Below are positions 16,919 to 64,000 of a DNA stretch of 64,000 nt, piece after piece. This DNA is from Eubacteriaceae bacterium. Its GTDB lineage: Bacteria > Bacillota > Clostridia > Eubacteriales > Anaerofustaceae. Position 1 is the stretch's first letter. The number at the start of each line of letters is the position of its first letter. The notes below the pieces were generated by a model. The model was given only the letters and a program-made list of their open reading frames with translations. It made no database searches and was not told where the DNA came from. The DNA lies in the NCBI GenBank assembly GCA_017531485.1, contig JAFXKY010000058.1, positions 1-64,000 of the forward strand. Reading direction: 5' to 3'. The position numbers and the translations under genes are program-made.

Positions 16919-19713
16919 TGGCAAATAAAAAGGTTTATGATCTTGCTAAGGAATATAACGTTGCGAGCAAAGATTTCGTGAAAATGCTTCAGGATGCGGA
17001 TATTCCCGTAAAGAACCATATGAGTTCCGTTACGGAGCAGCAGGAGAAGTATTTCAAGAACAACTACGTTGTCGTGGATGGCAGATCCATGACAAAGGAC
17101 GAAGCTGAAAAATACAAGGCTAAGACTGAAGCAAAGGCTGAAAAGCCCTCTCAGGAAAAAACATCTCAGCCCAAGGAGAACGCGCCTATGAAGGAAAAAG
17201 CAAAAGACGAAAACAATCAGTCCCAGAGACAGCCGAAAAAAGAGAGCCGTCCGAGGGATAATCAGGAAAGAAGCAGAGATAATACAAACAGAGAGCCGAG
17301 AAACAATCAGAACCGCGACGGTCAGAGAGATTCTCAGAGAAGAGAATATCAGCCGAGAGATAATCAGAACCGCGACGGACAGAAGAGAGAGTATCAGCCG
17401 AGAGACAATCAGAATCGTGACGGACAGAAGAGAGAGTATCAGCCGAGAAACAATCAGAACCGCGACGGACAGAAGAGAGAGTATCAGCCGAGAGACAATC
17501 AGGGCCGTGACGGACAGAAGAGAGAATATCAGCCGAGAGATAATCAGAACCGCGACAGAAACAATCAGAACCGTGACGGACAGCGTCAGGGACAGAGCCG
17601 CGACGGCGGACAGAGAAGAGACAATCAGGGCGGATACAACAGAAATCAGGGCGGTGCTTATGACAAAGACCGCGATAAAGTATATGACCGCACAAAGCCC
17701 ACTGCGCAGAACCGCAGTCAGGCACCGAAGAGAAATACTGCAGGGGTAGCTCAGGAAGGACTTGAAAAACAGAAGATCGACAAGTCAAAGAAAGAGTCCA
17801 AGCAGAAGAACGAACAGAAGTCACGTGCCAAAGAAAACTTCTACAGCGATGATATGCCGTCAAGAAGCATCGACAACGCAAAGAAGACAAAAGGCAACAA
17901 AGGCGAATATAAAAAGAAAAAGATCGCGGAAAAAGAAGAAAAGATGTTCCGCGGAGTTGACGGTCCGGTAACACTTCCGGAAAGCATGTCAGTAAGTGAG
18001 CTTGCTGAAAAGGTAATGCTCAAACCGACAGACATCATCAGAACACTCATGGGTTACGGAATGATGGTTTCTATGAACCAGGTCATCGACTTCGAAACAA
18101 TGCAGATCATCTGTGAAGAGCTCGGAATCGAAGCGAGAATGGAACAGGAAGAAGACATCATCGAAAACATCCTCGCAAAACACTATGCGGATGAAGATAA
18201 GCTCATGACGAGACCGCCGATCATCACTGTTATGGGTCACGTTGACCATGGTAAGACATCACTCCTTGATGCGATCCGTAACACAAACGTAATCAAAGGC
18301 GAAGCCGGCGGTATCACACAGCACATCGGTGCTTACACTATCGAACTTAACGGAGAAGCTATCACATTCATCGATACACCGGGACACGAAGCCTTCACTG
18401 CAATGCGTTCAAGAGGTGCGTCAGTAACAGACATCGCAGTTCTGGTCGTTGCTGCAGACGACGGAATCATGCCGCAGACAGTCGAAGCGATCAACCACGC
18501 AAAGGCTGCGGAAGTTCCCATCATCGTAGCAATCAACAAGATCGACAAGACAGAAGCGAATATCGATAAGGTTAAACAGGGTCTTACGGAATACGGCCTC
18601 GTAAGTGAAGACTGGGGCGGAGATACTATCTGCGTTCCTATCTCAGCTAAAAAAGGCATCGGCATCGAAGAACTCCTTGATATGATCCTTCTCGTTGCTG
18701 AAGTTGAAGACCTCAAGGCAAACTTCGAACTTCCGGCAGTCGGTACGATCATTGAATCACGTATCGACAAGCAGAGAGGTGTTACGGCAACTCTCCTCGT
18801 AAAGAGCGGCGTGATGAAAGACGGGGATATCGTAGTTACGGGTACTGTTTACGGCAAGATCAGGGTAATGACAGACGACAAGGGCAACAAGCTCACAGAA
18901 GCAGGCCCGTCAAGAGCTGTTGAGATCCTCGGACTTGATGCGGTTCCGGATGCAGGAAGCAAGTTCTATATTGCAGAAAGCGAAAAAGAAGCAAAACGCA
19001 TCACAGACCAGAGAAAAGACCGTCAGAGAGCACTCGCAGCAAAATCAACTGCTCCTGTCAGCCTTGATGACCTCTTTGAACAGATCTCTCAGGGTCAGCT
19101 CAAAGAAATCCAGCTCATCGTCAAGACCGACGTTCACGGTTCATTCGAAGCTATCAAGCAGTCACTTGAAAAACTCAGCGACAACGGAGACAACATCGCA
19201 GTACGCGTAATCCACGGCGGAGCAGGCGCTGTTACGGAATCAGACGTAACGCTCGCAGCAGCTTCAAACGCTCTCATCATCGCATTCAACGTCCGTCCGG
19301 ACGCAAAAGCGAGAGACGCGGCAGCAAGGGAAGGCATCGAAATCAGAACTTACAACGTAATTTACAGCATCCTCGAAGAAGTCGAAGCGGCTATGAAGGG
19401 TATGCTTGAACCGGAATACAAAGAAGTCGTCACAGGTTCAGTCGAAGTCCGTCAGCTCTTCAAAGTACCCAACGTCGGTACTGTTGCAGGCGGATACGTT
19501 ACGGGTGGTACTGTATCAAGAAAAGAAAACGTACGCGTTATCCGTAACGGCATCGTAATCTTCGACGGCGTCATCGCTTCTCTCAGAAGATTCAAAGACG
19601 ACGTAAGGGAAGTTGCGGCAGGATATGAATGTGGTATCGGCATTGAAAGATACAACGACATCAAGGAAGGCGACGTTCTGGAATTCTACAAGATGGAGGA
19701 AATCCCGAGATAA
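16918..19713 (+). CDS. infB: Translation initiation factor IF-2
   Basis: 931 aa. A short N-terminal IF2_N motif (KKVYDLAKEYNVASKDFVKML) is followed by a long charged linker that includes five 15-residue tandem repeats (~145-219). A second IF2_N segment lies near residues 350-405 (VSELAEKVMLKPTDIIRTLMGYGMM), and the GTPase domain begins near 435 (MGHVDHGKTSLLDAIR, DTPGHEAF, NKIDK). C-terminal beta-barrel and C1/C2 domains bind fMet-tRNA. It delivers initiator tRNA to the ribosome. The ATG overlaps the rnpM stop. Confidence 0.97.
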   Translation: MANKKVYDLAKEYNVASKDFVKMLQDADIPVKNHMSSVTEQQEKYFKNNYVVVDGRSMTKDEAEKYKAKTEAKAEKPSQEKTSQPKENAPMKEKAKDENNQSQRQPKKESRPRDNQERSRDNTNREPRNNQNRDGQRDSQRREYQPRDNQNRDGQKREYQPRDNQNRDGQKREYQPRNNQNRDGQKREYQPRDNQGRDGQKREYQPRDNQNRDRNNQNRDGQRQGQSRDGGQRRDNQGGYNRNQGGAYDKDRDKVYDRTKPTAQNRSQAPKRNTAGVAQEGLEKQKIDKSKKESKQKNEQKSRAKENFYSDDMPSRSIDNAKKTKGNKGEYKKKKIAEKEEKMFRGVDGPVTLPESMSVSELAEKVMLKPTDIIRTLMGYGMMVSMNQVIDFETMQIICEELGIEARMEQEEDIIENILAKHYADEDKLMTRPPIITVMGHVDHGKTSLLDAIRNTNVIKGEAGGITQHIGAYTIELNGEAITFIDTPGHEAFTAMRSRGASVTDIAVLVVAADDGIMPQTVEAINHAKAAEVPIIVAINKIDKTEANIDKVKQGLTEYGLVSEDWGGDTICVPISAKKGIGIEELLDMILLVAEVEDLKANFELPAVGTIIESRIDKQRGVTATLLVKSGVMKDGDIVVTGTVYGKIRVMTDDKGNKLTEAGPSRAVEILGLDAVPDAGSKFYIAESEKEAKRITDQRKDRQRALAAKSTAPVSLDDLFEQISQGQLKEIQLIVKTDVHGSFEAIKQSLEKLSDNGDNIAVRVIHGGAGAVTESDVTLAAASNALIIAFNVRPDAKARDAAAREGIEIRTYNVIYSILEEVEAAMKGMLEPEYKEVVTGSVEVRQLFKVPNVGTVAGGYVTGGTVSRKENVRVIRNGIVIFDGVIASLRRFKDDVREVAAGYECGIGIERYNDIKEGDVLEFYKMEEIPR
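17350..17574 (+). repeat. Five tandem 45-bp repeats inside infB
   Basis: Units begin at 17350, 17395, 17440, 17485 and 17530, exactly 45 bp apart. Each encodes close variants of QPRDNQNRDGQKREY. Most differences between units are synonymous or D/N changes. Being a multiple of three, copy number can change without breaking the frame. Confidence 0.9.
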
Positions 19714-59359: not shown

Positions 59360-59383
59360 TAAAAAACCACCCCATCCGGGGTG
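59360..59383 (-). terminator. Terminator 2 of the SipW-type protein gene
   Basis: On the minus strand CCACCCC and GGGGTGG pair and TTTTTT follows. Confidence 0.8.
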
Positions 59384-59395
59384 GCGCAGAAAAAA

Positions 59396-59438
59396 TGCAG
59401 AGTTCAAAGGACACTTCCCAAGTGCCCTTTGAACTCTG
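59396..59438 (-). terminator. Long-stem terminator 1 of the SipW-type protein gene
   Basis: 59396-59415 pairs with 59419-59438, 20 positions with one A-C mismatch; T6 follows on the minus strand. An unusually long stem for a terminator. Confidence 0.85.
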
Positions 59439-59462
59439 CCCCCGACGGGGGCAGTGAGATGA

Positions 59463-61061
59463 TTACGAGATTGTAATCTGATTTCCGTCTGCATCGAAAT
59501 TGATAACATCATCGAAACCGAACTCAATGATTCGCTTATCATTCTTTGTAGCTATAAATGTGTTGCCGTTACCAAAAATATTGAGGTTAAGTGTTGAATC
59601 TTTTACACCCTTGCCGCCGTTATCTTTATCAGAGTAGATATGTACCCAGAATGCACGGCTTACGCCTTCAAGTGTGCTGTTTTTGATAGTAACGTTATTC
59701 ATGCCTGAACCATTGTTGAAAATACGAACAGGAATGTAGCTTGATTTGATTTTAGAGTTAGTGATGTTAAGAGTTGTATTTGTTGAGTTTACAACGTCAA
59801 CTGCATATGCCATATCAGAACCACCAAGGTTTTCAATAACAGCATTGTCAATATTTAATGTTCCGTTGAAACCTACATAAAATACTTCAGTGCATGCATT
59901 CCAACCAAAGTTGTCAGACATGTGATTTATAGTAATTGTACCGTTTTTAACATTCAGTGTTCCTCTTACGTCGATAGCTACTTCATTGTCTGCACTTGTT
60001 AATTTGCCGTCGTCATTCTTGTCTGCATCATCAGTAACAAATTCAAGTGTGTGTCCATTAAGATCTAATGTTGATGTTGCTCCAGCCTGAATAGTGATTG
60101 TTTCATCTGAATCAGATTCGATATCTTCCGTAAGAACTACATCTTTACCTGCAGCGAGAGCTGCTGTGAGTTCTTCTGCTGTTGCAACGGTTACAGGAAC
60201 TTCAAATTCGTCTTTTTCAAACCATGCTTTAGCATTTGTTGCATCAGCTACACCAAACGCTGTATCAAGAGCTGTCTGTGCGTTTTCAAATCCTGCTGTC
60301 TGAACTGCCTGAGAGAATACGAGGATATCGTATGTACCGTTCTTGTTGCCGTCGATTGCTTCAACGTCTTCGTTTGTTGCAGAACCAGTCATATAAACCT
60401 GAGCAAGGCTCGGGTATGTAGTATCTCCTGCGGGGAGAACACCGTTTTCATGAACACCGCCTAAAGCTTTTGCGCCGTTGTAGAGATATTCGCTGACAAC
60501 GTACTTGTTGCCGTCAATTTCAACAACGCCAATATCGTTTACTTTCCATACACCCTGAGTTGTCATGAAACTACTTGTTCTGATTATGTTATCAAACTCA
60601 GCCTCAGCCAAAGAGCCGATTTCAAAAGCGATAAGTGTACGTACATAAGCGTCTGATTTGCCTGTGTTTTCAACTGTTACGAATTTGTCAACAGCGTTTT
60701 TGTTTACAAACACATCCATAGAGCCATGAGAGTCAACCTGTGACATCTTTACTCTTGTTGCACCATAGTTGCCTGCGCCGTAGTTATACGGATCGCCGTT
60801 TGCATCTACGTCTGTTGCAGGATAAAGCGGTTTAGCCTGAGAGAAGTTTTTCAGAACATAACCATATGTTGTGTCAGTTTTGTACTCGCCGTTTTCTACA
60901 ACACGTTCATACTCATGCTGTTCGATTGTTACATTTCCAAGTGTCATAACGTTCACGTCGCTGTCTTCGTCCTGAAGGTACGCTACTGTTGCGCCTACAG
61001 ATACTGCAGCTACCATCGCAAATGCGAGCACGGATGCTATGACTTTTTTAAAAGTTTTCAT
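59463..61061 (-). CDS. Exported protein with SipW-dependent-type signal and beta-helix-like C-terminus
   Basis: 532 aa. MKTFKKVIASVLAFAMVAA then SVGATVAYLQDEDSDVNVMTLGNVTIEQ matches the SipW-dependent signal and the conserved start of TasA/camelysin-like and related clostridial surface proteins. A middle domain (~50-290) is TasA/CalY-like. After a linker (TVATAEELTAALAAGKDVVL) the C-terminal ~210 residues have repeated short strands and Asn ladders (NITNSKI, NVTIKNSTLEG, NLNIFGNGN) typical of a right-handed beta-helix. The Met at 61061 follows GGAGGAAAAAACA. SipW-like peptidase is not in the window. Promoter contains a (TA)n tract; two terminators follow. Role in matrix or adhesion is inferred. 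Confidence 0.82.
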   Translation of the reverse strand: MKTFKKVIASVLAFAMVAAVSVGATVAYLQDEDSDVNVMTLGNVTIEQHEYERVVENGEYKTDTTYGYVLKNFSQAKPLYPATDVDANGDPYNYGAGNYGATRVKMSQVDSHGSMDVFVNKNAVDKFVTVENTGKSDAYVRTLIAFEIGSLAEAEFDNIIRTSSFMTTQGVWKVNDIGVVEIDGNKYVVSEYLYNGAKALGGVHENGVLPAGDTTYPSLAQVYMTGSATNEDVEAIDGNKNGTYDILVFSQAVQTAGFENAQTALDTAFGVADATNAKAWFEKDEFEVPVTVATAEELTAALAAGKDVVLTEDIESDSDETITIQAGATSTLDLNGHTLEFVTDDADKNDDGKLTSADNEVAIDVRGTLNVKNGTITINHMSDNFGWNACTEVFYVGFNGTLNIDNAVIENLGGSDMAYAVDVVNSTNTTLNITNSKIKSSYIPVRIFNNGSGMNNVTIKNSTLEGVSRAFWVHIYSDKDNGGKGVKDSTLNLNIFGNGNTFIATKNDKRIIEFGFDDVINFDADGNQITIS

Positions 61062-61109
61062 TGTTTTTTCCTCCATTTCTTTCGTTTTACTTGGAATCAA
61101 TACGAGTCC

Positions 61110-61134
61110 ATTATATATATATATATATCGTCAA
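61110..61134 (-). promoter_or_regulatory. Promoter with (TA)n spacer tract
   Basis: On the minus strand TTGACG (61129-61134) and TATAAT (61110-61115) are only 13 nt apart, and the spacer is pure alternating TA: 61112-61128 is a 17-nt uninterrupted (TA)8.5 run. Adding two TA units would give the optimal 17-nt spacing. Confidence 0.7.
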
Positions 61135-61166: not shown

Positions 61167-61193
61167 AAAGGAACCGCCCTTTCGGGCAGTCCC
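61167..61193 (-). terminator. Terminator of the rlmB-smr transcript
   Basis: On the minus strand GGACTGCCC and GGGCGGTTCC pair with G-U pairs across GAAA, followed by TTTT. Confidence 0.7.
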
Positions 61194-61200
61194 TCTGAGT

Positions 61201-63508: not shown

Positions 63509-64000
63509 TCCCCCTTAGGATAAGGGGGATACAGGGGGATGCGACACGCAGAAGGCCGGGGAAAAACGGGTGTTCCACGAACCAAACCCGCTGAAATCCC
63601 ATTTCAGCGGAACAGGGCGGAGGAGCACCTGCGGAGTCAGAATCGGAGCTTGCCGCAGATTTTGACGGATGCACGGTGCTTTGACGCCCGGGGGAAGGTG
63701 GCACGCAGTGCCGGATGAGGGGATTGTAAAAAGAACGAGTGCGGGAGATGCTGATGTTCCACGAACCGGACCCGCGGAAATCCCATTTTCGCGGAACAGG
63801 GCGGAGGGACACCTATGGAGCTAAGACAGAAGCAACGCGGAGGGCTTAGCGGATATACGGTGTTCTGACGCCCTCATCCCCCTGTCATCATCGCGAAAGT
63901 CGCTCGATGACGTCCCCCTTACAAGTAAGGGGGAAAGATGACGCAGTCATCAGGGGGATTCTGACCGAAAGAGTACGTGATATGCGGATGTCCCACGAAC
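63509..64000. repeat. Composite array of alternating A and B elements
   Basis: Order: short A (63509-63540), 30-nt linker, B2 (63571-63690), degenerate A with GGCAC/GTGCC hairpin (63690-63724), 30-nt linker, B3 (63755-63877), long A (63881-63959), 29-nt linker, start of another B (63989-64000), cut by the window end. No coding sequence is evident. B2 and B3 share GTTCCACGAAC, a hairpin around AAATCCCATTT, then AGGGCGGAG and closing CGCCC. Confidence 0.88.

Follow-up and report, generated by a model that had tools for sequence, protein, structure and literature searches.

Candidate phase-variable promoters with TA-repeat spacers in a dispersed family of SipW-type surface-protein genes

Gram-negative pathogens and mycoplasmas supply most of the known cases of phase variation through microsatellites in promoters. 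In one such system, that of the Vlp lipoproteins of Mycoplasma hyorhinis, the repeats are homopolymeric A tracts and the genes are clustered. The Vlp lipoproteins are expressed combinatorially (PMC11868660), from promoters that carry repeats (PMC3899988). At hifA/hifB of Haemophilus influenzae, a run of (TA)9-11 lies between the -35 and -10 hexamers and acts as a switch through slipped-strand changes in promoter spacing (PMC2651432, PMC3899988); other TA tracts listed for H. influenzae have 8-10 units (PMC2651432). The porA promoter of Neisseria meningitidis has a poly-G spacer that sets the level of expression, again by spacing (PMC3899988). For the Clostridia, the examples of phase variation given in a recent review are the invertible promoters of Clostridioides difficile (PMC11868660).

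We describe here a promoter of similar architecture in a window of 64,000 nucleotides, this being the whole stretch of DNA analysed, together with its counterparts elsewhere in the same genome. As in hif, a TA microsatellite lies between the -35 and -10 of surface-structure genes, with a similar number of repeats (8 to 10 here). The hif region, however, has one bidirectional promoter serving two divergent fimbrial genes, whereas the present genome has at least six one-way promoters belonging to a dispersed family; and whereas switching has been shown for hif, with spacing proposed as the switch, the present set is known from sequence, in a SipW-encoding host of Gram-positive type. The resemblance to Vlp is that several surface-protein genes each have a repeat-bearing promoter of their own (six TA promoters, eight dispersed genes), but the repeats are TA dinucleotides and the loci are scattered over seven contigs. 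The porA tract shares the position between -35 and -10, but it is mononucleotide and serves a single gene. With the SipW-TasA/CalY/BsaA matrix systems of Firmicutes the family shares a SipW-type leader, a dedicated SipW peptidase and exported β-rich proteins, although the window protein differs in bearing a C-terminal β-helix, as predicted by modelling. We know of no repeat-based promoter switching in those systems, and a search of the open-access literature found no TA-spacer switching across a dispersed SipW-type family. The class of mechanism is known; what would be new is its use across such a family outside the classic organisms and, if this is correct, repeat-based contingency loci would extend to the SipW-type surface systems of Gram-positive-type bacteria.

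TA promoters of the window gene and its sisters

The promoter in the window stands on the minus strand ahead of a gene for a SipW-type exported protein (59463-61061). It reads AAAAAAAACC TTGACG ATATATATATATA TATAAT GGACTCG, followed by a ribosome-binding site (GGAGG, 61070-61074, 8 nt ahead of the start codon) and then by the ATG at 61061. The -35 hexamer TTGACG (61129-61134), with the A-rich stretch AAAAAAAACC just upstream, and the -10 hexamer TATAAT (61110-61115) are separated by a 13-nt spacer of pure TA (61116-61128), while the full (TA)8.5 tract (61112-61128) overlaps the -10 hexamer. Shuffling the window gives an expectation of 0.00 for runs of (TA)7. A terminator-like hairpin belonging to the upstream gene (61167-61196, same strand) isolates the TA promoter as a transcription unit of its own and, since the adjoining gene lies on the same strand, the promoter is one-way rather than shared by a divergent pair.

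An earlier sequence-only reading had described this region as TTGACG and TATAAT separated by 13 nt of pure TA, within a 17-nt (TA)8.5 run, and as the only good promoter of the gene. The hexamers and spacer are exactly as it claimed (61134-61110, minus strand), the run is recovered by TRF, and a scan for sigma-70-like sites from the terminator (61196-61167) to the start codon finds no other promoter for the gene. Its description of the tract as a single one was wrong, however, as the same architecture stands ahead of at least five sister genes.

These sister promoters are spread through the host genome, a 2.17-Mb draft in 81 contigs. For the eight dispersed genes six promoter regions are assembled, and every one of them has a TA run separating a TTG-type -35 from the -10. 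Besides the window promoter (TTGACG-13-TATAAT, on contig C47), there are two on C73 (C73a, TTGACT-18-TATAAT, and C73b, TTGACC-14-TATAAT), one on C2 (TTGCAT-13-TATAAT) and one at the left end of C30 (TTGCAT-15-TATAAT), these tract lengths being taken from one draft, apparently short-read to judge from its 141-nt overlaps, in which microsatellite length can be wrong. The sixth, at the left end of C65, has TTGATT as its -35, and the contig stops within the tract; if it is joined to C16, whose contig starts TATATAATGG, the spacer is at least 19 nt, the pairing of C65 with C16 being made solely by elimination. Promoter and gene are linked directly in the window and in the two C73 cases, whereas the link spans contig ends for C2 (gene body on C78 or C39), C30 (on C28 or C62) and C65. 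The C2 and C30 promoters agree in the -35 and in its flank (AAAAAAGGCTTGCAT) and are one TA unit apart. A single G interrupts the tract of C73a; the other five are uninterrupted and hold 8 to 10 full TA units. A terminator-like hairpin precedes every one of the six promoters, and the A-rich upstream stretch is conserved across the family along with the tract.

Only five places in the whole genome have a TA tract of seven or more units, and six in its 2.17 Mb have (TA)8 with at most one mismatch, all of which are these family promoters; allowing two mismatches adds one further place. Searched for as a pattern (TA tract, AAT, 25-55 nt, ATGAA), the arrangement matches 3 times in its own genome, twice among the 390 other genomes of the class, as unrelated singletons, and nowhere else in the order or family, and no comparable set of TA promoters was found among 391 genomes of the class. 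The genus has one other genome, and its SipW-type loci have no TA tract as long as (TA)5; two distant relatives examined for comparison are without TA tracts, and the viral contigs searched gave none. Because a comparable pattern is nearly absent from the other genomes of class, order and family, the TA-promoter arrangement appears to be lineage-specific, as far as the genomes searched go.

The exported proteins, the SipW operon and the 3' element

The window protein, of 532 residues, comprises a SipW-type leader, a conserved N-terminal domain and a C-terminal half predicted to be a right-handed β-helix. It is one of nine sister genes that align well (the window gene, two on C73, and one each on C16, C78, C39, C28, C62 and C30), the others having overall identities of 38-62% to the window protein and the same build of leader, conserved N-terminal domain and variable C-terminal part; eight of them are dispersed, over seven different contigs. 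The window protein scores 14.7 bits against TIGR04088, below the curated cut-off of 19, and even the best of the nine aligned members reaches only E 0.026. An AlphaFold2 model built on nine sequences is of moderate confidence (mean pLDDT 62.8, pTM 0.48). Its residues 287-530 match mainly right-handed β-helix proteins (Z 13-14), which include the adhesins PfbA and SRRP as well as lyases, a common fold being no proof of function; the comparison is hardly a test of the N-terminal domain. Two members match the pectate-lyase-like adhesive domain PF20585 (best E 3.7e-7), and a profile search of solved structures gave no match. Surface adhesion or a matrix role is likely for the product, as the sequence-only reading had also suggested, given the SipW-type leader, a predicted β-helix with adhesins among its matches, and a SipW peptidase in the genome.

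This SipW-type signal peptidase (C30:8119-8691; 106 bits against a cut-off of 51.85) is apparently encoded in one operon with the sister gene C30:3458-5152, and two of the operon neighbours pass the TIGR04088 cut-off, with 24.9 and 27.0 bits. The apparent operon (C30 162-8691, minus strand) includes the peptidase, two proteins with SipW leaders, the TA-family member and an isopeptide-domain protein, the last with five pilin-type (Spy0128/FctA-type) isopeptide domains. Its gene content reads as a pilus-like and a matrix-type system side by side.

The family also has a 3' element of its own, at 59361-59454 on the minus strand in the window, which follows seven of the eight dispersed genes. It consists, in order, of a hairpin (CTGCCCCC/GGGGGCAG), an overlapping hairpin of 17-20 bp (AGTTCAAAGGGCACT/AGTGTCCTTTGAACT), a U-run and a terminator hairpin; the two overlapping hairpins are possibly mutually exclusive. 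With a covariance model, the element is found in its own genome solely at this family (window, C78, C39, C16, C73, C28, C62 and, in the SipW operon, C30), and 66 other genomes of the order give one marginal match (E 7.4e-4). Support from covariation is modest, with three pairs changed on both sides. In the SipW operon the first two hairpins stand between genes, implying that the element may do more than terminate. The family thus forms a set of coherent cassettes, from promoter to terminator.

Spacer lengths and the case for switching

What spacing do the promoters of this genome prefer? In 191 kb of genome, exact TTGA...TATAAT pairs are found 15 times with a spacing of 16-18 nt, where about 2 would be expected, and are near background at other spacings; there are three at 13-14 nt, of which two are TA promoters. 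A looser count, requiring five of six positions in each hexamer, has no spacing peak. By the genome's own rule the promoters of the window (13 nt), C2 (13), C73b (14) and C30 (15) are off-spacing, that of C65 is probably so too, and C73a (18 nt) is acceptable. This lends support to the earlier view that the window spacer is too short as sequenced. Most tracts lie off the 16-18 nt peak, and one or two TA units would correct each of these. A spacer of odd length (13, 15) would have a single full ON length open to it, 17, and one of even length (14, 18) would have two, 16 and 18. That 13 nt corresponds to OFF we infer from general promoter knowledge together with the TTGA/TATAAT count. The six natural spacers are on offer for comparison with expression.

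We propose that these genes are a dispersed family of phase-variable surface-protein cassettes, with hif-like slipped-strand switching at TA-spacer promoters, and put the probability of this at roughly three in four. Each cassette would have its own sigma-A promoter, with a -35/-10 spacer made up largely of TA microsatellite. Slipped-strand mispairing would gain or lose TA units, shifting the spacing by 2 nt per step, with transcription active at about 16-18 nt and dropping outside this range; the window copy, at 13 nt, is predicted to be OFF or weak and to turn ON after gaining two units. With a separate tract for each cassette, the combination of exported proteins on display, cleaved by the dedicated SipW peptidase, would differ from cell to cell. 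Slippage at any one locus, its effect on transcription, the combinatorial display and the adhesive or matrix function are what we infer. Slipped-strand change in the spacer would explain together the position of the tracts, their purity, their differing lengths, their exclusivity and the class of gene they serve, and the uncultured host probably turns a whole set of surface proteins on and off randomly. The suggestion that first drew attention to the window promoter, that it may be phase-variable, holds up as a candidate on its position, the spacing preference, the sister tracts, their exclusivity and the product. We lean slightly towards the further idea of a lineage-specific display, in which some eight SipW-type adhesin or matrix cassettes slip independently and the protein mix is reset randomly in each cell lineage.

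The differences in length are those among sister loci of one genome, with one genome per species, and could be a slow accumulation. The genome has MutS, so that slippage would run against a working mismatch repair, which is expected to restrain dinucleotide slippage. Loss of mismatch repair as a cause of hypermutability was rejected on the presence of the same gene.

Alternatively, the TA tract could be a fixed promoter feature, an easily melted sequence or regulator site that permits an unusual spacer, with conventional regulation and a length that hardly matters. This would accord with the conservation of the tract and A-rich stretch across the family and with the conventional regulation of SipW matrix genes elsewhere, the sipW-bsaA operon of Clostridium perfringens being bimodal via a two-component system (PMC7395162). 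We nevertheless consider it unlikely: the spacer length is not conserved (13, 14, 15, 18 and at least 19 nt), the other TTGA/TATAAT pairs of the genome hold to 16-18 nt, and there is no TA tract ahead of the SipW operon gene C30:3458-5152.

Duplication of cassettes, or gene conversion, has clearly happened, as seen in the 5' sequence that members have in common (99% for the window and C28, over 145 nt), in the short exact blocks of 45-141 nt common to sister genes, and in the 3' element. The tract might then be a passenger, spread with duplicated promoter-leader cassettes and now drifting in length without selection as a switch. Drift should have interrupted most of the tracts, yet five of six are uninterrupted while the leader regions, -35 hexamers and flanks have diverged, and we find this explanation improbable.

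Contig ends and repeats

Loci of this kind disrupt short-read assemblies: eight contig ends (C2, C30, C65, C16, C78, C39, C28 and C62) coincide with the tracts or come within about 160 nt of them. The right end of C2, which carries a promoter and leader, shares an overlap of exactly 141 nt with each of C78 and C39, and C2 is the single upstream contig found for the two. This exact overlap points to a k-mer assembler halted by shared sequence. A rearrangement in which recombination within the common 5' region puts different gene bodies behind a single promoter-leader segment would make use of this fork and of the exact blocks, but it is highly improbable, since the neighbours of C78 and C39 differ and joining both to C2 would need large rearrangements, the only recombinases found are two of phage-integrase type (serine recombinases being outside the search), neither on a family contig, and a second copy left unassembled accounts for the fork. 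DNA inversion as the main mechanism was rejected on the same search, the two recombinases not being nearby.

For slipped-strand switching, the remaining contig ends have little weight: C65, C16, C28, C62 and C30 break off in the tract or close to it and lack a 141-nt overlap, which is consistent with heterogeneity in length and also with low coverage or confusion among repeats. C16 carries genes recognisable from sequence as CO-dehydrogenase/acetyl-CoA synthase-like, which suggests that the host belongs to an acetogenic lineage of Clostridia. Near the end of the window there is a G+C-rich repeat, GTTCCACGAACC...GAAATCCCATTT...GCGGAACAGGGCGGAGG (63570-63620 and 63755-63800), with a similar translated stretch on C73 (3943-4284); it looks like a dispersed intergenic repeat. 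A 45-bp tandem repeat, its unit divisible by three, occupies 17341-17556 of the window in 4.8 copies with 90% matches.
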